This document shows positions 34,489 to 42,561 of a stretch of DNA of 64,000 nucleotides, piece after piece (position 1 is the first letter of the stretch; every line of letters begins with the position of its first letter). The stretch is taken from assembly GCA_030432565.1 (NCBI GenBank), contig JAUIGV010000021.1:1-64000 (forward strand), read 5' to 3'. The position numbers were made by a program, and so were the translations under genes. The notes under the pieces were generated by a model. The model did not search any database. It saw only the letters and a list, made by a program, of their open reading frames with translations, and was not told the origin of the DNA. This DNA comes from Verrucomicrobiia bacterium. Its GTDB lineage: Bacteria > Verrucomicrobiota > Verrucomicrobiia > Verrucomicrobiales > Akkermansiaceae.

Positions 34489-34673
34489 GATAAACGAACT
34501 AGGAACCAGAGTCTCAAACTTGCAAGCGCATAAATGATAAGCGATCAAGCAAGGAGCGAATCGCCATTGAGCGCCGATCCTTACCCGCCATCGCAATCCC
34601 CGGCTGGATCACCACTGCCTTCCCCGGGCGAAGGGAGCTTTCAAAACCGCTTTAATTGTGTCACCCTTCCGGC

Positions 34674-35414
34674 ATGACTTTTAAAATCCCCGCTGTCATT
34701 TTCTCTGTTTTGTTTCTGGTTCTCCAGTCCTGCTCCATCGGAACCCCCGCCCGGACGACCACCAAACAGGCCGTCGCCAAAGAGTGGCCCAGGATCCAGG
34801 CCGCGATCGCCGCGCAGCGGAGAGCCGGCCATCCAAACTACAATCCCGAGTGGATTTACATCGTTGACCCCGGCACCCAGCGGATGCAGGTCATCTCGCT
34901 GAAAACCCGCGAAGTTCGCATGACGCTCCGTTGCGGAACCGGAAGACGGGGTCTTGGTACCGCACACGCCCAAACTCCTCCGGGCTTCTTCACCATGGGG
35001 GGAGTTCGTATTGCCAGGAATGCCGATTCCTCCATTCAAACCGGTGACTCCAAACGAGGCGTCAGCGGCATATACGCTGAAATCCTGTACCCACCCACCC
35101 ACCCCGATCCCAAGCTTCGGGGCTATGTTCCAAACGGTGTAGTCATCCACTCCTACAATCCCGAAGCCAGCGAAATGCTCCGCCAACGTCGTGCCCAACG
35201 AATGATCGGCCGGGTCCCCTGCACCACCGGCTGCCCGGTGCCCGATATCGATGAAGCTCACAAGCTGATCCCTTATCTCAGGCAATCAGCCGGCAAGTTT
35301 GACCCCACCGCCAAACCCAACGCCAACCTTCGAGCACTGATCAGCACAGGCCAAGTGAAACAGTATCAACGGAATCAACTTGGCGATCCCATCTATATCC
35401 TGAACCGTCAGTAA
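34674..35414 (+). CDS. L,D-transpeptidase-like lipoprotein (YkuD superfamily)
   Basis: A 246-residue exported lipoprotein; the signal ends in a lipobox with Cys20 (LVLQSCSIG). The catalytic domain matches the murein L,D-transpeptidase family of the YkuD_2 type: YIVDPGTQRMQVISLKTREV, TPPGFFTMGG, GVVIHSYNPE with the conserved His, and CTTGCPVPD with a Cys in the place of the nucleophile. Such enzymes cross-link peptidoglycan stems or attach proteins to it. The ATG at 34674 is preferred to one six residues upstream because it directly precedes the signal. It is convergent with the YrbL-like gene and transcribed alone. Confidence 0.85.
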   Translation: MTFKIPAVIFSVLFLVLQSCSIGTPARTTTKQAVAKEWPRIQAAIAAQRRAGHPNYNPEWIYIVDPGTQRMQVISLKTREVRMTLRCGTGRRGLGTAHAQTPPGFFTMGGVRIARNADSSIQTGDSKRGVSGIYAEILYPPTHPDPKLRGYVPNGVVIHSYNPEASEMLRQRRAQRMIGRVPCTTGCPVPDIDEAHKLIPYLRQSAGKFDPTAKPNANLRALISTGQVKQYQRNQLGDPIYILNRQ

Positions 35415-35424
35415 TAACGGCGGA

Positions 35425-36096
35425 TCAGTCTTGTTCCTGAATTCCCCGTCCCTTCAGCTCCTCGCCCGATTCACGTTGGGCGAGGATTTTCCTGAGCGCA
35501 CGCTCATGCTTGGCCCGTCGTTTCCGGTGGACTCTTCTTTGCTCTTTTCGAAACCATTTCGCCAAAGGAATCAATTGCCCGAAGGCATAGCCATCAATCG
35601 CATAAATCTGACAACTCCCGTCTGCCTTCACCTTCACGGAAAGGTTATCGGGGCGGGCCTCCACAAACACCCAGTGCTCGTCAAGGAGTTGCCAAAACTC
35701 TTCAAGAGCCTTTTCGCATTCCGGGGTGAGGCCATGCCGCCAAACATGCTCTTTCAGCGTCAAAGAGATCCCGTCATCATGATCGGTGATTAAATCCACT
35801 TCCAAAGCCGGGCCCAAATCTGTTTCCACAATCCCGTGCGCGCGGGCCACGAAGTTCCAAGCCGCAGATCCCACGCGCTTCCCCAACCCGGTCGAAAAAT
35901 GCAATTCACTCTCGTTCTCGTGAAAATGCCATCGCGGTCGCACCAGCCTTGCAATCACATTCGCCCTTTTCCTCCGATCGCATTGCCGCCAATCCTCGGT
36001 CATCACCTTGAGACAGCGATTTGCGTGATCAGGATGGCGGTAAACTTTGCGATGATTCCCGTGGGCGAACGGCGTAGTATCGCTTAACTTGATCAT
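35425..36096 (-). CDS. YrbL-like protein (PhoP regulatory network family)
   Basis: A 223-residue soluble protein of the YrbL family, a small protein-kinase-like fold. The opening MIKLSDTTPFAHGNHRKVYRHPDHANRCLKV matches YrbL (glycine-rich loop, basic residue, Lys), with VETDLGPALEVDLITDHDDG and SLTLKEHVW following. The usual catalytic loop is changed to VEARPDNLSVKV, keeping P-x-N, and IYAIDGYAFGQ stands at the metal-binding place. The ATG at 36096 is chosen; the longer frame adds a lysine-rich, unconserved stretch. The C-terminus is strongly basic. Kinase activity is not demonstrated for the family. Confidence 0.8.
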   Translation of the reverse strand: MIKLSDTTPFAHGNHRKVYRHPDHANRCLKVMTEDWRQCDRRKRANVIARLVRPRWHFHENESELHFSTGLGKRVGSAAWNFVARAHGIVETDLGPALEVDLITDHDDGISLTLKEHVWRHGLTPECEKALEEFWQLLDEHWVFVEARPDNLSVKVKADGSCQIYAIDGYAFGQLIPLAKWFRKEQRRVHRKRRAKHERALRKILAQRESGEELKGRGIQEQD

Positions 36097-36223
36097 CTTC
36101 GATTCTCCCACACGCCGTCTCCCTTCGCAACTCTCATCCCCCTCCCCAACTCCCTCGGTTTTCCAAAATTTCCTTTTTTTGTAAGAGGACATTGCCCCCA
36201 ACACGATTCATAATCCCATCAAC

Positions 36224-37375
36224 ATGTCCCCAAAAACAAAACTCCTTTCTGCCATCGCGCTCCTCGTTGTCGCGCTTGGCGTCGCGGTCTTCTTCATCTT
36301 CCGGGATGGCGATGACGAAAGCACCATCCTCACTGCCGAGCAGCTTTCACGGTATGAGGAAGGCATGTATTACCGCACCATCGTCACCTCGACCGTCCAG
36401 GGACAGATCGAGGACAAGGACTGGGGCGTCGAAAAGAAAGTCACCCTCATCCACGAAGGCGAGACTGATTTCATCCGTGAAGTGAAGTCCGTCGCCAAGG
36501 ATCACTCAGACGTGGTGGTCGGATTGGAAATCCTCACCGCACGCGACCTTGAAGTGAAATTGGATCTCGATGACCTCAATCTCGACCTCCCTCCAGCCGT
36601 CGGAATTCTCGGTAAGGGTGCCCGCAAAATCCTACTGCCCGGACCTGAAGGAATCGCGGTCGACCTGGTCACCGACCGCGCCGCCGAGTGGCTGAAGAGC
36701 GACACCAATCGCCAAAAGGCACTTTCGCGAATTAACTTCGCAGTTGAAGCAGTCACCGGCCAGGGCATTGAAGAACATCTCCTCGAAGCAAAGCTCCAAC
36801 CCCTTGAAGCCTACGAAGGCCTCACCGCCGAATACACCTATGAAGCCGGCGAAGGACTGGTCGATTTTCAGACCAAAGCCACCCTGTCCAAGGACCAGGA
36901 AGAGCGGGTCAAAAACTTCTCCGTTTACAGCGAAGCCTACCTCCTTCCGGATACCGACCCGGATGGACCGGAGGAATGGGATGTCGATGTCAAAACCATC
37001 GCCCATCTGCTCGCGCCCAGCGGCGACCTCGATGTCAGTGGAACGCTCACCTTAAAACGCGAATCCACCTATGGTGATGAAACGCGCCTTAAGATCGTGA
37101 AGGGCAAAGTCGTCTTTTCCGGCTCGAGCGACAGAAACAAAGTCCTTGGAACCTGGGCCGCGCGTGGCTCACTTTACTACAATTTGAAGACCCACAGCAT
37201 TGTTGAGGGCAAGCTCACCGGCGACGTTTCGCTCGAACGAACAAGCACCGATCACGTTCTCTTTGAGGAGAAGTTTAAAACCGAACCCAGCTACCGGGTT
37301 GTCATCAAGGGCTACGCCACCAAAGATCCCGACGAAGCCCGCAAAGAGATTGCCGGTGAAAAGATGAAGCGATGA
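36224..37375 (+). CDS. Membrane-anchored extracytoplasmic protein, first of ABCG-like operon
   Basis: A 383-residue protein with one N-terminal anchor helix (LLSAIALLVVALGVAVFFIF) and a long acidic extracytoplasmic part. The latter is strongly beta-patterned (YYRTIVTSTVQGQIED, VKSVAKDHSDVVVGLEILTARDLEVKLDLDD, WAARGSLYYNLKTHSIVEGKL), resembling the lipid-sensing or lipoprotein-like domains of unassigned proteins. No catalytic motif is seen. Its stop overlaps the ATG of the ABC gene by 4 bp. As the first gene of a coupled four-gene unit it is probably a substrate-binding or accessory part of the transporter. Confidence 0.7.
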   Translation: MSPKTKLLSAIALLVVALGVAVFFIFRDGDDESTILTAEQLSRYEEGMYYRTIVTSTVQGQIEDKDWGVEKKVTLIHEGETDFIREVKSVAKDHSDVVVGLEILTARDLEVKLDLDDLNLDLPPAVGILGKGARKILLPGPEGIAVDLVTDRAAEWLKSDTNRQKALSRINFAVEAVTGQGIEEHLLEAKLQPLEAYEGLTAEYTYEAGEGLVDFQTKATLSKDQEERVKNFSVYSEAYLLPDTDPDGPEEWDVDVKTIAHLLAPSGDLDVSGTLTLKRESTYGDETRLKIVKGKVVFSGSSDRNKVLGTWAARGSLYYNLKTHSIVEGKLTGDVSLERTSTDHVLFEEKFKTEPSYRVVIKGYATKDPDEARKEIAGEKMKR

Positions 37376-39042
37376 TGAAAGACGCAGTCGGCTTGCAGGT
37401 TGAAGGACTCACCATTCGTCAGAAGGGGATTACCATCCTCAACGACCTTTCGCTTCATCTCGAAGCGGGATCGCTGACCGGGCTCATAGGACCCAGTGGA
37501 GCCGGAAAAACAACCCTTCTTCGCACCCTTGGACTGCGCCCCCCGAGCAGAAAAAACAAGGACCTTGGCATCGTCTCCATCGTCGAAGGAAACCAGGCCA
37601 CTCGAATCTCAGGAGCCAATCATCAGTCGCTGCTTGAGATCCTTTCCTATGTTCCCCAGCAGGATCTCTTTCCCGAATCCGCCCACGTCGGGGAAGTCCT
37701 CGAAGAGGCTCTGATTTTTTCCGGGCATGATGCCGATCCTGTTTCACTTCTGAAATCCGTGGGCCTCTCCGGGGATTTTATGGACCAGTCTGTCTCCAAA
37801 ATTTCCGGCGGAGAAAAGCGGCGTCTCTCGCTGGCCCGGGCTCTCTGTTCGGGCCCTCGCATTCTCCTCCTGGACGAACCCACCAGCGGACTCGATCTAC
37901 CTGTCGCCCATGAGGTAATGCAGCTATTGCGGGAGCTATGCGATCGTCACAAGCTGACCATTGTCACCACCAGCCACCTTCCGGGAACGCTTGCAGTTTG
38001 CGACCGCCTGCTCGTGATGGAAAAGGGCGGAAAATTAAAGGCCGATTACCAGGATGTGCCTGCTTTGCTCGCGACGACCGGCGAAGCAGATCTCTTCGAG
38101 AAAAGCACCTCGATCAGCCCCATCGAGTCTTTTGACTATGCCGACTCACCCGACACCGGTCGGGACTGGTGGAACCCCCGGCACTTCGGAGCCATCTTTC
38201 GGCGTTCGGCACGCCAGTCCTTCCGTGACTACGGAGCTGCCCGCGTCACCATCGCCCTCCCCATCCTCCTCGCCGGACTCATCGTATTCACGCAGTCACT
38301 TCACGGAGGGAACAGCCCCCGCTTCATCAATTTCTTCCTGACCATCGCTGCCTTGTGGATTGGAATGTCCCTGACCATCCGCGAGATTATTTCAAGCCGC
38401 GCACTTTATGCAATTGATGAACTCAGCGGACTGGGGAAGTTCTCATTCTTTCATGCCAAATCCGCCTTTGCCATCTTCATGGTCACCTTCAGCACTCTGC
38501 TGCTTTGCCTTTCGACCTGGTTCTTCGTGTGGTTCTTCAAAATCGACCCGGACGCAGTGGCAGCCTCGAACTGGTTCGACGCCCGTGACTTCATCTCGCA
38601 CTTCTTCGTGCTGGGAATTGTTTGCTTCTCGGGAGCCATGATCGGGCTCCTGCTTTCCACGCTGGCCCGCTCGGAGCGGGGAGCCGTCGCGATGATGCCC
38701 ATCGTTTTATTGCCTCACGTTCTCCTCAGCAAATACGCCACGGGCTTCGCCGGAGAAGCGAACAACGAAAGCCTGACCCACCCTTTCCACAGCCTCGATT
38801 TGGAAAAGGTCGACTACTCCGGGTTCACGCTGATCGAGCAGGGCAACTTCTGGGGCAGTCTCTTCGCATCCACCCGACATGCCACCTCGATTTTTGATCA
38901 GCTGGGTTCCGCCCGGTTTTCCTTTGGCCGGATCTTTGGTCTCGATTTCTGGGCTCTCGCCATTCTTGTAACCGGCCAGGCTCTTTTGGCTCTTATCATC
39001 TTCTGCTATTCGGCAAACTCCGCCATTCGACGAATCAAATGA
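37372..39042 (+). CDS. ABCG-like half-transporter (ATPase fused to ABC-2 membrane domain)
   Basis: A 556-residue ATP-binding/permease fusion in the order nucleotide-binding domain then membrane domain, as in eukaryotic ABCG proteins. ATPase motifs are intact: Walker A GPSGAGKTT (G40-T48), signature ISGGEKRRL (144-152), Walker B ILLLDEPTSGLD with Glu169, and H-loop His202. The membrane domain has about six helices and the ABC-2/ABCG-typical SLTIREIISSRALY. It would dimerise into a functional exporter. It is coupled to both neighbours by 4-bp overlaps, and they encode three uncharacterised membrane proteins. The substrate could be a lipid, a glycan or a small molecule; nothing in the sequence decides. 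Confidence 0.88.
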   Translation: MMKDAVGLQVEGLTIRQKGITILNDLSLHLEAGSLTGLIGPSGAGKTTLLRTLGLRPPSRKNKDLGIVSIVEGNQATRISGANHQSLLEILSYVPQQDLFPESAHVGEVLEEALIFSGHDADPVSLLKSVGLSGDFMDQSVSKISGGEKRRLSLARALCSGPRILLLDEPTSGLDLPVAHEVMQLLRELCDRHKLTIVTTSHLPGTLAVCDRLLVMEKGGKLKADYQDVPALLATTGEADLFEKSTSISPIESFDYADSPDTGRDWWNPRHFGAIFRRSARQSFRDYGAARVTIALPILLAGLIVFTQSLHGGNSPRFINFFLTIAALWIGMSLTIREIISSRALYAIDELSGLGKFSFFHAKSAFAIFMVTFSTLLLCLSTWFFVWFFKIDPDAVAASNWFDARDFISHFFVLGIVCFSGAMIGLLLSTLARSERGAVAMMPIVLLPHVLLSKYATGFAGEANNESLTHPFHSLDLEKVDYSGFTLIEQGNFWGSLFASTRHATSIFDQLGSARFSFGRIFGLDFWALAILVTGQALLALIIFCYSANSAIRRIK

Positions 39043-40256
39043 GTAAACTCGAACCCATCGACAACGGAGTGCGGCGCTTTCGCCCGGGCTTGATGATGGC
39101 GCTTTGCGTCCTCGTTCTGCTCGGCGGCGGATGGGTCATTTTTCAAAGGGTGCAAGACAAGCAGAGCGACACCGGCTCTACTTCCCCGACCACCAAGACC
39201 AGCGGAGAGATCAAAAAAATCCGAGAAGCCCCGGCCCCGCCACCTCCCCCGCCATCGATCCATCCGCTTGCGGGGAAACGCCGGGTCTTCCTCGCAGATG
39301 GTTGCCTTTATCGCTACCAGGAACTGAGCTTCGCCCGCGATCTGACCGGGCAACATGACTATCCCGGCGCGGTCATCCGCAAGAAAGACCCTTGTCTCTG
39401 GAAATTCGTGGGAGTTCCCGACAAGGAAAATGCCTACCGGATCTTTTGTGCCGACCCCAACTTTCCCGAACTTCACGGGCACAATCTCACTTACACCCGC
39501 TTTCAAGATGATGACGTCCCGCAAGATGACCACCTTCCTTTCGTTACCCTCAGAGACAACGACTACTGCGAATGGCAGGTTCGCGAAGCAGGGCCCAAGG
39601 ATCAATACGAGCTCTACTGCCTCAGCGGCAAGGGACCTTTTGAAGATGCCAGCCTTGGCTGGACCGATGCGCAGGAAGAACTGTCTTCGGAATTAACAAC
39701 CGCCACTCTCGGAGAAAACGGAACCCCTTCATGGTGGATTCTTCCAGAAGGAAAAAGCCCCGAACTTCCACGCCGGGCCTCCCACCTGATAGTCATGAAG
39801 AGAGGCCGGATTATGTATGAGGATGAGGCCCGGGAGGACTTTGAACAACACGGCCCCAAAATCTTCCGGGCAAAACTCAAGACTGCCGACGATGAATTCG
39901 AACGTCCGGCGGAAGCTCTCAATTACGTTGAATTGGTCAAGGCAATCCGCAATTCCGACCCTGTGATCGGGCACCCCGATTTCCCTTCCCTCCTGGGGGC
40001 AGGTCCGGCCGAGCTTTTGGATGGGACGGCTTCTTTGGAACGCCCGGATTCCATGTTCCCATTCATTATTCCGCTCAAAGTGGCCCTGCATCCCCATCTC
40101 ATCCACGAACTCACGATGGAGAATACAAAATTCTGGAAGAACGACTGGGAAACACTTGAGGACTTCCAAAGCCATCTCGACGAATCCGATTTCGCCGACG
40201 GCCGGGTCTACCAAGGCACCCGGTTCACTTACATTTTCGTCTCGTGGGATCCATGA
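39039..40256 (+). CDS. Membrane-anchored protein with Cys-x-Trp repeats, ABCG-like operon
   Basis: A 405-residue protein: short cytoplasmic tail, one anchor helix (MMALCVLVLLGGGWVIF), a Pro-rich spacer (APAPPPPPPS at 65-73), then an extracytoplasmic domain. Two similar units are visible there: C119-x-W121...Y133-x-x-x-C137 and C177-x-W179...Y190-x-x-x-C194, each a Cys-Trp-beta-beta-Cys element that looks like part of a trefoil or lectin-like fold, with each pair possibly disulfide-bonded. The C-terminal half is helical and acidic. I do not recognise a named family. It is between the ABC gene and a polytopic protein, each with 4-bp overlaps. Confidence 0.65.
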   Translation: MSKLEPIDNGVRRFRPGLMMALCVLVLLGGGWVIFQRVQDKQSDTGSTSPTTKTSGEIKKIREAPAPPPPPPSIHPLAGKRRVFLADGCLYRYQELSFARDLTGQHDYPGAVIRKKDPCLWKFVGVPDKENAYRIFCADPNFPELHGHNLTYTRFQDDDVPQDDHLPFVTLRDNDYCEWQVREAGPKDQYELYCLSGKGPFEDASLGWTDAQEELSSELTTATLGENGTPSWWILPEGKSPELPRRASHLIVMKRGRIMYEDEAREDFEQHGPKIFRAKLKTADDEFERPAEALNYVELVKAIRNSDPVIGHPDFPSLLGAGPAELLDGTASLERPDSMFPFIIPLKVALHPHLIHELTMENTKFWKNDWETLEDFQSHLDESDFADGRVYQGTRFTYIFVSWDP

Positions 40257-41479
40257 AACCTCAATTGACCAAGTACTGGTTCGTAATCTATGTGCTCGCA
40301 GCCTTGTTGGTCCTGGGCGGGCTCTTGAACCTCGGAGTTCATCTGGGACCAAGGCTTGAAGCTTGGTTGATGGTAAAACTAGTTCCGGAAATCTGGCGCT
40401 CCACGATTGACGACCTCATTCACCGCTTTTTCTCTGAGGAACTGCGAGCCTTTCTTGTCACAACCGGGTTCGGACTGGGAATCATCATCATTGGAATGAC
40501 TCTCTTTCCCCTGAAGGAAAAGCTCTCTGCCACTTACGAGGAAGAACGTTTTCCGGAAATCGAAAAACAACCTCAACCTCCCCTCTGGCGACAAGGGCTG
40601 GAGGAAGTCAAACTCGCTTTTCTCTATCTCCTCCTGCAGGGAATGAGCCTCTTTCTTGCCGTTCAGGGTCATGCTTTTTTGTCCACCTTGGGTGCCGCAC
40701 TCTCAATCGCCTATCTCGTTGCCGCGATGGCGCTCGACCACTGCTCTCCGTTCTTCCAGCGTCGGGATCGCAAGATTCATGGCATTATTTGGATCCTCCT
40801 GAGGCATGCGCCCTTGCGAACAACTTTGATCGGGCTTCTCTGCATCGGCCCCGTCATTGTTCTCGAGCGCCAACTCCCCGCCTCGCTTGGCCCAACCGTG
40901 GCCATCGCCATTCTTGTCTTTACCGAGGTCCTCGGAATGGCTTGCGCCACTCTTCTCGGGTGTCGTCTCGGGGCTGCTCTTCTAAAAAAGAAAGACGGCC
41001 CCGCCGGCCAGCCACCCCCGGCGTTGTGGACTCTTTCCTATCGAACCACTGTTTTAATTCTCACTATTTGGCTGGGGGTATTCTTCAGCTGGTGGGGAAA
41101 CGGAATTTACACCCACTACCACTTCATGAAGTGCCAATACCGGCCTTTGTGGAAAGAAACTGACTTCAAGGTCCGGGAAACCAAGGCCCTCATCACCCTT
41201 CCGGTACAGGTTCACAATAAATCATGCGGACCGCTGGACCCTACCGAGCTTGAGATTGAAGTTCAGGGAAAAGGAATCCTGGCCGGAGGCGTCAAACTGA
41301 CCGGACCACTCATTCAGGCCGGCGAGACCTCAAACATCATGCTCAACTTTGAAGCAGAGCTTACCGAGGCGGCCCTTTTGGACCTCCCAAGCTTCCTCGA
41401 AGCAGAATATAGCGCCCATTTAAAATTCGAACCCCCTCTTTCGAAACCGGTCCTGCTGAAAATCTTCCCTCAAAACTAG
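40253..41479 (+). CDS. Polytopic membrane protein, last of ABCG-like operon
   Basis: A 408-residue protein with about seven hydrophobic helices (for example VIYVLAALLVLGGLL, GFGLGIIIIGMTLF, LTTLIGLLCIGPVIVLE, VLILTIWLGVFFSWW) in residues 7-290, then a C-terminal extracytoplasmic beta domain (VRETKALITLPVQVHNKSCG to LKFEPPLSKPVLLKIF). No transporter or enzyme signature is seen. The ATG at 40253 overlaps the stop of the previous gene by 4 bp; a start nine bases earlier is not needed. The operon ends here, and the next gene is convergent 5 bp later. Probably a permease partner or assembly protein for the ABCG-like transporter. Confidence 0.65.
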   Translation: MKPQLTKYWFVIYVLAALLVLGGLLNLGVHLGPRLEAWLMVKLVPEIWRSTIDDLIHRFFSEELRAFLVTTGFGLGIIIIGMTLFPLKEKLSATYEEERFPEIEKQPQPPLWRQGLEEVKLAFLYLLLQGMSLFLAVQGHAFLSTLGAALSIAYLVAAMALDHCSPFFQRRDRKIHGIIWILLRHAPLRTTLIGLLCIGPVIVLERQLPASLGPTVAIAILVFTEVLGMACATLLGCRLGAALLKKKDGPAGQPPPALWTLSYRTTVLILTIWLGVFFSWWGNGIYTHYHFMKCQYRPLWKETDFKVRETKALITLPVQVHNKSCGPLDPTELEIEVQGKGILAGGVKLTGPLIQAGETSNIMLNFEAELTEAALLDLPSFLEAEYSAHLKFEPPLSKPVLLKIFPQN

Positions 41480-41484
41480 TCCGG

Positions 41485-42012
41485 CTATTTGATCTGAAGT
41501 CCGGTTTTCTTGAGCGCAGTTTCGCGATCGACCAGGAAGCCGCCATGATAACCAGAGACGGAATAGCCCTTGTAAACCGTAACCTCAAAATCAAGAGTTT
41601 TGCCCGCCTTCACCTTCTTCTTGATGGTTTTCGTGGGAGTTTTCACGACAACCGATAGCTCGTGTGTCCCCGCATCAGCATGGACCTTCACGACCCTCTC
41701 TCCGCCCTTCTTGGTCACCTTATTGGTCAAGGAAATGGCATCATCGGGCTCCACCCATCGGTTGGCGATCTTCTGGTCCGCCGCGATGAGCCTTTCGATC
41801 ACCAACCAAACATGCCCCCCGTCCTCCTTAAGGATCTCAATTTTAGAACCATCACGATGCTTATCGGTGATCGCACCCTTGAGGGTCCGCTTGGTCTCCT
41901 GATCGGTCCAGGTACGTGAGTATTTTTTAAGCTGACGGAGCTCAGCCTCACTGCCACCACCTTGCGAGATCGTCAGCATCAGCAGCAAAAAACATAGCTT
42001 TGGAATGGCCAT
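41485..42012 (-). CDS. Exported SHD1-domain protein
   Basis: A 175-residue exported protein with signal peptide (MAIPKLCFLLLMLTISQ). Residues 28-86 form an SHD1-type domain (R33-x-W-T-D37, KIEILKEDGGHVWLVIERL, AADQKIANRW), the same module fused to thioredoxin at 30.4 kb. The remainder is a basic beta-sandwich (VHADAGTHELSVVVKTPTKTIKKKVKAG). The ATG at 42012 gives the basic-hydrophobic signal. It is convergent with the ABCG-like operon and divergent from the acidic-protein gene. Function unknown; a binding role is typical for SHD1. Confidence 0.75.
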   Translation of the reverse strand: MAIPKLCFLLLMLTISQGGGSEAELRQLKKYSRTWTDQETKRTLKGAITDKHRDGSKIEILKEDGGHVWLVIERLIAADQKIANRWVEPDDAISLTNKVTKKGGERVVKVHADAGTHELSVVVKTPTKTIKKKVKAGKTLDFEVTVYKGYSVSGYHGGFLVDRETALKKTGLQIK

Positions 42013-42150
42013 TCCCTGATCTAACAAGCCAAATTCGGAGTGTCAAAGCGTTTGCAAGTGACCGTCGAACAGGTCTGATCCAATGCACTCATCCTGCCAT
42101 TCACAAAAAATTTTCTTTTGCCACGCGAAATCCGATTTTAGCGTTCGACC

Positions 42151-42561
42151 ATGTCCAGCGGAATTAGCGTCGTTTGCGAGCCCGAGATTGAAGATCTTGA
42201 AGGCTATTTTGAGGAATTGGCAGCAGTCTATGAAGAACTGGCGGCTCTCCTGAAAGACGAAGGAGTGGATATCCTCCCCTATCTTTTTTGCCCTGACAGT
42301 GATCTCTCCGACGAGGAGGCGGACGCGGCCGGATACACAAAGGAAGACAAAGCCATTATGAAGATCATCGTGACCGAGGATTTCCATGACGCCGACGAGG
42401 TTTACGATGACATCAACACCGCTGCGGATCTGGTTCGCGCGATGGATGACGATCTTTTTGAGAATGGAAAAAAAGCCCTCCTCGACGATCTCGAAGGACT
42501 TGCTGAGACCCTGGAAATCCCGGTCGAGGAAAAAGTCACCGTCCAACTTCTCCGGGGATAA
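42151..42561 (+). CDS. Highly acidic small soluble protein
   Basis: A 136-residue protein with 39 Asp/Glu and only about 9 Lys/Arg, so strongly negative. It is helical, without signal peptide or membrane segment. Acidic clusters include PEIEDLEGYFEE and SDLSDEEADAAGY; the two Cys are at residues 9 and about 47. I recognise no family. A rho-independent terminator follows 29 bp after the stop. Possible roles are a cation-binding or DNA-mimic protein, but the sequence gives no direct proof. Confidence 0.6.
   Translation: MSSGISVVCEPEIEDLEGYFEELAAVYEELAALLKDEGVDILPYLFCPDSDLSDEEADAAGYTKEDKAIMKIIVTEDFHDADEVYDDINTAADLVRAMDDDLFENGKKALLDDLEGLAETLEIPVEEKVTVQLLRG

Follow-up and report, generated by a model that had tools for sequence, protein, structure and literature searches.

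What is the unit of function at a bacterial locus where an ABCG-like transporter is encoded in one coupled run with three membrane-anchored or membrane-spanning proteins? In an Akkermansiaceae genome (Verrucomicrobiota; contig JAUIGV010000021.1), four such genes, here called A-B-C-D, lie on the + strand at positions 36224-41479. A sequence-only reading had presented them as an undescribed envelope export or remodelling complex, with translational coupling taken to imply stoichiometric assembly of all four products. The 64,000-nucleotide stretch that was analysed is referred to as the window; G and L numbers designate genomes and loci, respectively.

Organization of the operon

The four genes form a same-strand run in which each junction is a 4-bp overlap:

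Gene A, 36224..37375, + strand: 383 aa; N-terminal membrane anchor at residues 7-25, followed by a beta-rich extracytoplasmic part
Gene B, 37372..39042, + strand: 556 aa; ABCG-order half-transporter with ATPase at about 1-230 and permease at about 285-556
Gene C, 39039..40256, + strand: 405 aa; anchor at 17-35, Pro-rich linker, repeat at 75-137 and 138-194, C-terminal domain at 247-403
Gene D, 40253..41479, + strand: 408 aa counted from ATG; C-terminal domain of about 120 residues behind seven hydrophobic segments

The overlaps are ATGA sequences at 37372 (A/B), 39039 (B/C) and 40253 (C/D), the last of which requires that D start at ATG 40253 and not at the earlier GTG 40244 given in the ORF list. 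With this start, the layout is as the earlier reading had described it. Its account of the protein architectures was likewise borne out, with a single N-terminal hydrophobic segment as the anchor in both A and C, and seven hydrophobic segments in D, whose C-terminal domain is probably extracytoplasmic.

Among the 13 carriers of the set in the window's genus, the A/B junction is ATGA in 12 (the exception, L028, reads TAATG), as is the B/C junction (in the exception, L027, it is GTGA and an ATG comes later). The C/D junction is the weak joint. The 4-bp overlap of the window is found likewise in L023 and L025, there with a GTG start; in L017, L019 and L022 the old ATGA is still open into D, with a 22-residue D extension; and in L018, L020 and L021 the reading from ATGA into D is closed and D starts about 66 bp later. 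In L024 (genome G016; 886-1386), approximately 500 bp, absent from the other carriers with both genes, lie between C and D. Loci L026 and L028 end before D, and L027 is ambiguous at this junction. The step from translational coupling to stoichiometric assembly is thus not sustained, since the C/D overlap is inconstant and gene overlap is no proof of assembly. For all four genes, dN/dS was 0.06-0.11 (window versus L017) and 0.08-0.20 (L020 versus L021); these low values in two comparisons indicate purifying selection, and A, B, C and D are thus all maintained as proteins.

The flanks of the operon hold several further genes. Directly upstream lies a gene for a YrbL-PhoP_reg family protein (35425-36204, - strand; 2.8e-30), which is kept in several relatives, preceded by one for an L,D-transpeptidase (34656-35414, + strand; YkuD, 3.9e-6) that is possibly envelope-related and is kept near the operon in relatives. 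Between D and the next + strand gene, E, a 180-aa protein is encoded (41485-42027, - strand); among the fetched relatives it was matched only in G003, in pieces and in different frames, and is thus probably a recent insertion or fast-evolving. Gene E (42151-42561, + strand) encodes a 136-aa acidic protein beside the operon that is 84-90% identical across eight relatives, the window copy having a weak Dehydratase_LU match (0.0018, below cut-off). As a fifth partner, gene E was rejected, because it is also found in G003, G004, G007, G013 and G024, all of which are without the intact set.

The transporter and its partners

Gene B encodes a complete set of ATPase motifs, comprising Walker A (GPSGAGKTT, residue 40), Q-loop (PQQD, 95), signature (SGGE, 145), Walker B (LLLDEP, 165), D-loop (SGLD, 172) and H-loop (TSH, 200). 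Six hydrophobic segments follow behind the ATPase at 292-544, the fifth and sixth being separated by a long stretch, as is usual in ABCG proteins; the description of B as an intact ABCG-order ATPase-permease therefore stands. Pfam matched ABC_tran (2.1e-24) and, at 1.2e-5 and 25.4 bits, ABC2_membrane just below its cut-off of 26.9, a threshold passed by the A-linked relatives L161, L162, L163, L164, L167 and L184. B shares with eukaryotic ABCG half-transporters the ATPase-then-permease order, the six spans and the long fifth-sixth stretch, but it differs from them in having operon partners A, C and D. Moreover, the best NCBIfam row, TIGR00955 (pigment precursor permease subfamily; 3.6e-30, far below cut-off), is limited to the ATPase at residues 14-219. 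The chain starts at the ATPase and had no FHA match in Pfam. B is probably a homodimer.

None of the other three proteins belongs to a named family over the curated Pfam or NCBIfam cut-offs, in agreement with the sequence-only reading. For A, the structure model has a mean pLDDT of 47.6, and searches of the PDB sequences returned one chance-level row with a genus profile and none with a wider profile. Foldseek searches with the A and C models gave no match reaching E 0.001. A lipid-carrier fold for A, suggested by Foldseek rows for LIMP-2 and microsomal triglyceride transfer protein (E 0.002-0.003), was discarded, with TM-scores below 0.2 and a model of this pLDDT.

In C, the Cys-x-Trp element described earlier is a true repeat for two copies: in 1000 column shuffles, the score between copies 1 and 2 was never attained. 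The third copy did not hold up, as comparisons with it were equalled in 144 and 239 of 1000 shuffles and are not significant. The invariant cysteines are at 89, 137, 177 and 194. The model of C has a mean pLDDT of 48.8, with the repeat part below 50. A beta-trefoil was not adopted given two significant repeats instead of three, the poor model, and the occurrence of lectin-type trefoils only among non-significant Foldseek rows. A C2-like C-terminal domain was rejected because the best VIA-align hit (Z 4.8, rmsd 7.4 A) is at a level that the tool describes as common. D had by eye a likeness to CysZ/EI24 (PF07264), from which it differs in its additional C-terminal domain; the profile alignment is weak (hhalign 26.1 over 62 columns, with 6 of 150 block shuffles as high), D had no Pfam match to PF07264, EI24 was not found in the window's genome, and this candidate was not adopted.

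Presence and loss within the genus

The A-B-C-D set is present in 13 of the 27 genus genomes (Akkermansiaceae MAGs), D having been found in 12 of these 13. A, C and D were searched across all 27 genomes, while the presence of B in the 13 carriers was read from the fetched loci. A was matched in 14 genomes and D in 13, one match in each case being a fragment in G003; D was not matched in G021, where the contig ends inside C. Matches to C were obtained in 13 of the 27 genomes, the window's own included, in a search of 58 genomes; among the 31 non-genus relatives there was no convincing match, with one weak match (1.4e-4) in another genus covering the anchor and linker region. The order A-B-C is kept in 13 of 13 carriers; C is truncated where the contig stops in G019 and G021, and it is split in G023. 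In 11 of the 13, D comes after C on one contig, truncated in the same way in G016 and G022; in G019, a separate contig begins with the remainder of D.

In G003, the closest relative seen, whose flanks are intact and align with those of the window at 91-95% DNA identity, a single gap corresponding to window positions 36536 to 41218 leaves residues 1-104 of A fused beside residues 323-408 of D (L113 6209-6770). At the corresponding place G004 retains only scraps, B 1-19 and D 384-405, as weak matches (E 0.001-0.002), and the stretches fetched from G002 and G005 contain the outer flanks and none of A-D. Loss over all or most of the length in two genomes (G003 and G004) indicates that A-B-C-D is dispensable. 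No intact C or D without A-B was found among the 27 genus genomes searched for A, C and D. Whole-set losses between such close relatives provide natural knock-outs for comparison.

The A-B pair across the phylum

Early wide searches misleadingly suggested genus-specific genes, because a single-sequence search with B at E 1e-80 and a genus-only profile of A each matched one of 288 phylum genomes, that of the window itself. When GTDB contigs were scanned for two B-permease peptide patterns, 12 loci were retrieved, all from Akkermansiaceae or Verrucomicrobiales MAGs and on contigs that agree in length with those of the other 12 carriers. With a profile of the B permease, proteins were found in 11 further phylum genomes (E <= 1e-6), and eight of these loci were examined (G049, G151 and G281 were left out). 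In four of the eight, the upstream neighbour matched the A genus profile (2e-16 to 3e-8); once the profile had been extended with those four, A was recognized upstream in seven (L161-L167; not L168). A 12-row family alignment, the A7 profile, then gave matches in 12 of the 387 phylum genomes: that of the window, the seven already known and four further ones (G107, G473, G467 and G059; 5e-44 to 1e-29).

In each of the 11 non-window loci, an ABCG gene with the same orientation lies directly downstream of A. The seven that B had led to do not count as independent; the independent test is provided by G107, G473, G467 and G059, which were found via A alone; A and B are adjacent in 4/4. Judged from sequence and gene order, A is a member of an unnamed, sporadic family whose genes sit upstream of ABCG-type transporters. 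The family does not accompany every ABCG protein: another ABCG-type transporter, with frames of about 1200 residues, occurs in much of the Akkermansiaceae sample (L052, L055, L058, L160 and others) and is not A-linked, and genomes with it (e.g., G028, G151 and G238) gave no A match with the A7 profile.

In a tree of the transporters, 14 A-linked ABCG proteins and five others split at one branch with support 81/82. A-linkage maps as one change on the tree in 76% of bootstrap trees, and none of 500 label shuffles came as low. The tree has long branches and an uncertain deeper order, and support for the branch that would unite the A-linked transporters is not strong. Of the five proteins labelled 'no A' (L052, L055, L058, L160 and L168), the label reflects a search for L055 and L168 and, only if its genome falls in the 387-genome sample, for L160; L051, L053 and L060 (short ORFs) and L159 (no B-profile match) were left out. 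The window's B falls in a set with L183, L161, L162 and L163 (95/96).

C and D behave differently from A and B. The genus profile of D matched one of 387 phylum genomes, the window's own. Using hmmsearch on 12 ABCG loci, no counterpart of C or D was found beside other A-B or ABCG genes, and hhalign of C and D against proteins near other A-B loci gave weak rows only, the best covering the anchor and Pro-rich linker. The expectation of a conserved four-gene order is thus upheld within the genus and fails beyond it, where the A-B pair alone recurs; the four genes are not one general unit. The two outcomes that the sequence-only reading had named as refuting it, scattered neighbours and membership of each protein in an unrelated known family, were not seen. 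A-B would therefore appear to be the recurrent core module, with C and D as a local addition seen only in the window's genus.

Signalling context of the A-linked transporters

Many of the distant transporters carry or adjoin signalling domains. FHA was found over the Pfam cut-off on six of the 11 A-linked transporters (L165, L166, L167, L181, L183 and L184) and not on L161, L162, L163, L164 and L182. A Ser/Thr kinase domain is encoded in the next gene in L165, L167 and L183. DO-GTPase-like domains occur in L164-L167, all below the Pfam curated cut-off, and these four loci also have in common a family of GAP1-like genes, which match one another by blastp at 3e-17 or better and of which the L166 member alone matched GAP1-N2 (0.0029, below cut-off); the members in L164, L165 and L167 had no Pfam match at 0.01. 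The small genes beside the GAP1-like genes in L164-L167 look related as well (1e-17 to 0.008). In L165 (8029-11520) and L167 (7901-11218), a kinase domain is joined to a DO-GTPase-like domain and a GAP1-like gene follows; the fusion proteins scored 1e-25 and 2.9e-15 for the kinase and, below cut-off, 2.3e-5 and 5e-5 for DO-GTPase.

Altogether, Ser/Thr kinase and/or DO-GTPase-like plus GAP1-like genes follow A-B in 5/11 loci, and in the other six no recognized kinase or GTPase gene adjoins the pair. A third gene, of 671 aa in L161 and 756 aa in L162, had no Pfam match; in L163, L181, L182 and L184, simple ORF lists contain no close same-strand gene after B, although the L163 contig ends soon after B. 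In the window, Pfam detected no kinase, DO-GTPase or GAP1 gene among A-D, and the YrbL-like protein nearby is encoded upstream on the opposite strand.

Comparison with known systems and alternative explanations

The closest counterpart is mycobacterial Rv1747-PknF. Two papers describe Rv1747 as having two FHA domains and an annotation as a lipooligosaccharide exporter, as being needed for normal levels of PIM glycolipids, which its loss lowers (PMC5549992), and as lying in one operon with the kinase gene pknF (PMC3908365). This system, FHA-FHA-ATPase-permease plus a Ser/Thr kinase, has the ABCG domain order of the A-linked relatives, which bear FHA in 6/11 cases and a next-gene kinase in 3/11. 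The likeness is drawn from domain order and gene context. Unlike Rv1747-PknF, the loci described here have an A-type anchored partner directly upstream, and the window's B is without FHA and has no kinase alongside. On this likeness we base our reading that A-B is the core of a regulated exporter, with a lipid or a glycolipid as its substrate.

A different comparison is with GTPase-centric conflict systems. Kaur et al. (2020) report gene neighbourhoods of GAP1-N2 whose themes are tubulin, HSP70 or kinase (PMC7159879); section 29 of that paper names no ABC transporter, and the count of 'abc' in the paper is 0. Loci L164-L167, in which DO-GTPase-like and GAP1-like genes, the core pair of such systems in that paper, stand by A-B, would fit a role of the pair as the membrane component of a conflict or defence system: on attack, kinase or DO-GTPase/GAP1 signals would trigger the pump or alter the membrane, and the window's genus would keep a stripped version. 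The sporadic distribution of A is in keeping with this. However, the DO-GTPase and GAP1 matches are all below Pfam cut-offs and none is seen in 7/11 loci, the window's operon has neither gene, and PADLOC has no model for A, C or D, with B and the kinases matching general ATPase or kinase models only. The conflict role of GAP1 systems is, moreover, itself a prediction in PMC7159879, and we regard a defence role for A-B as unlikely.

Export of small molecules would be another use for such a pump. Animal ABCG proteins include drug exporters, and the NCBIfam model that B matches best is that of an ABCG subfamily, albeit far below cut-off; A, C and D would then be accessory or adaptor proteins of an efflux pump for drug- or signal-like compounds. 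We consider this quite improbable, as the operon is without the outer-membrane or adaptor proteins of known efflux systems, and Rv1747, the sole experimentally studied FHA-ABC relative looked up, is tied to glycolipids. That A-D are merely unrelated neighbours sharing one transcript in this genus is very hard to credit: C and D are indeed unlinked to A-B elsewhere and their junction is variable, but the adjacency of A and B at every locus found via A alone argues against it, and, where searched for, the genes of the set are either all there or are missing or cut down to remnants as a group.

Proposed role and significance

The reading that we prefer, at a probability of roughly 0.5, is that A-B forms the core of an ABCG-type exporter for a lipid or glycolipid, with A as a dedicated extracytoplasmic partner and C and D serving for genus-specific control or hand-on. 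In such a complex, B would be an ATP-driven pump in the inner membrane, and A, anchored by its one N-terminal helix and lying on the far side of the membrane, would receive the substrate or gate its release. Delivery of this lipid-type substrate to the outer leaflet would be the most likely activity of A-B. The presence of FHA on about half of the distant pumps, together with kinase, DO-GTPase-like or GAP1-like neighbours in 5/11 loci, suggests that control of the pump probably comes from the cytosolic side. These cytosolic inputs are absent in the window's genus, where C and D, in the operon instead, would probably control the pump or pass its substrate on. As A-B is rare (12/387) and dispensable, it is not an essential envelope machine.

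The pump itself belongs to a familiar type. Neither the A family nor its association with ABCG transporters nor the C-D variant was found in Pfam, in NCBIfam (queried with A, C and D of the window) or in the literature searched. An ABC exporter tied to kinase plus DO-GTPase/GAP1-like signalling was not met in the open-access literature searched, and a search for the FHA-ABC/kinase combination in Verrucomicrobiota returned nothing relevant. We tentatively propose, at somewhat less than even odds, that A represents a new family of ABCG-pump partners and A-B a portable export module that is wired differently by lineage: to FHA and kinase; to kinase-DO-GTPase and GAP1-like proteins; or, in the window's genus, to C and D. 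If true, this would define an unrecognized class of regulated exporters for envelope lipids or conflict. Bacterial ABCG-order transporters are little understood, and a family of anchored partners would offer a direct handle on them.
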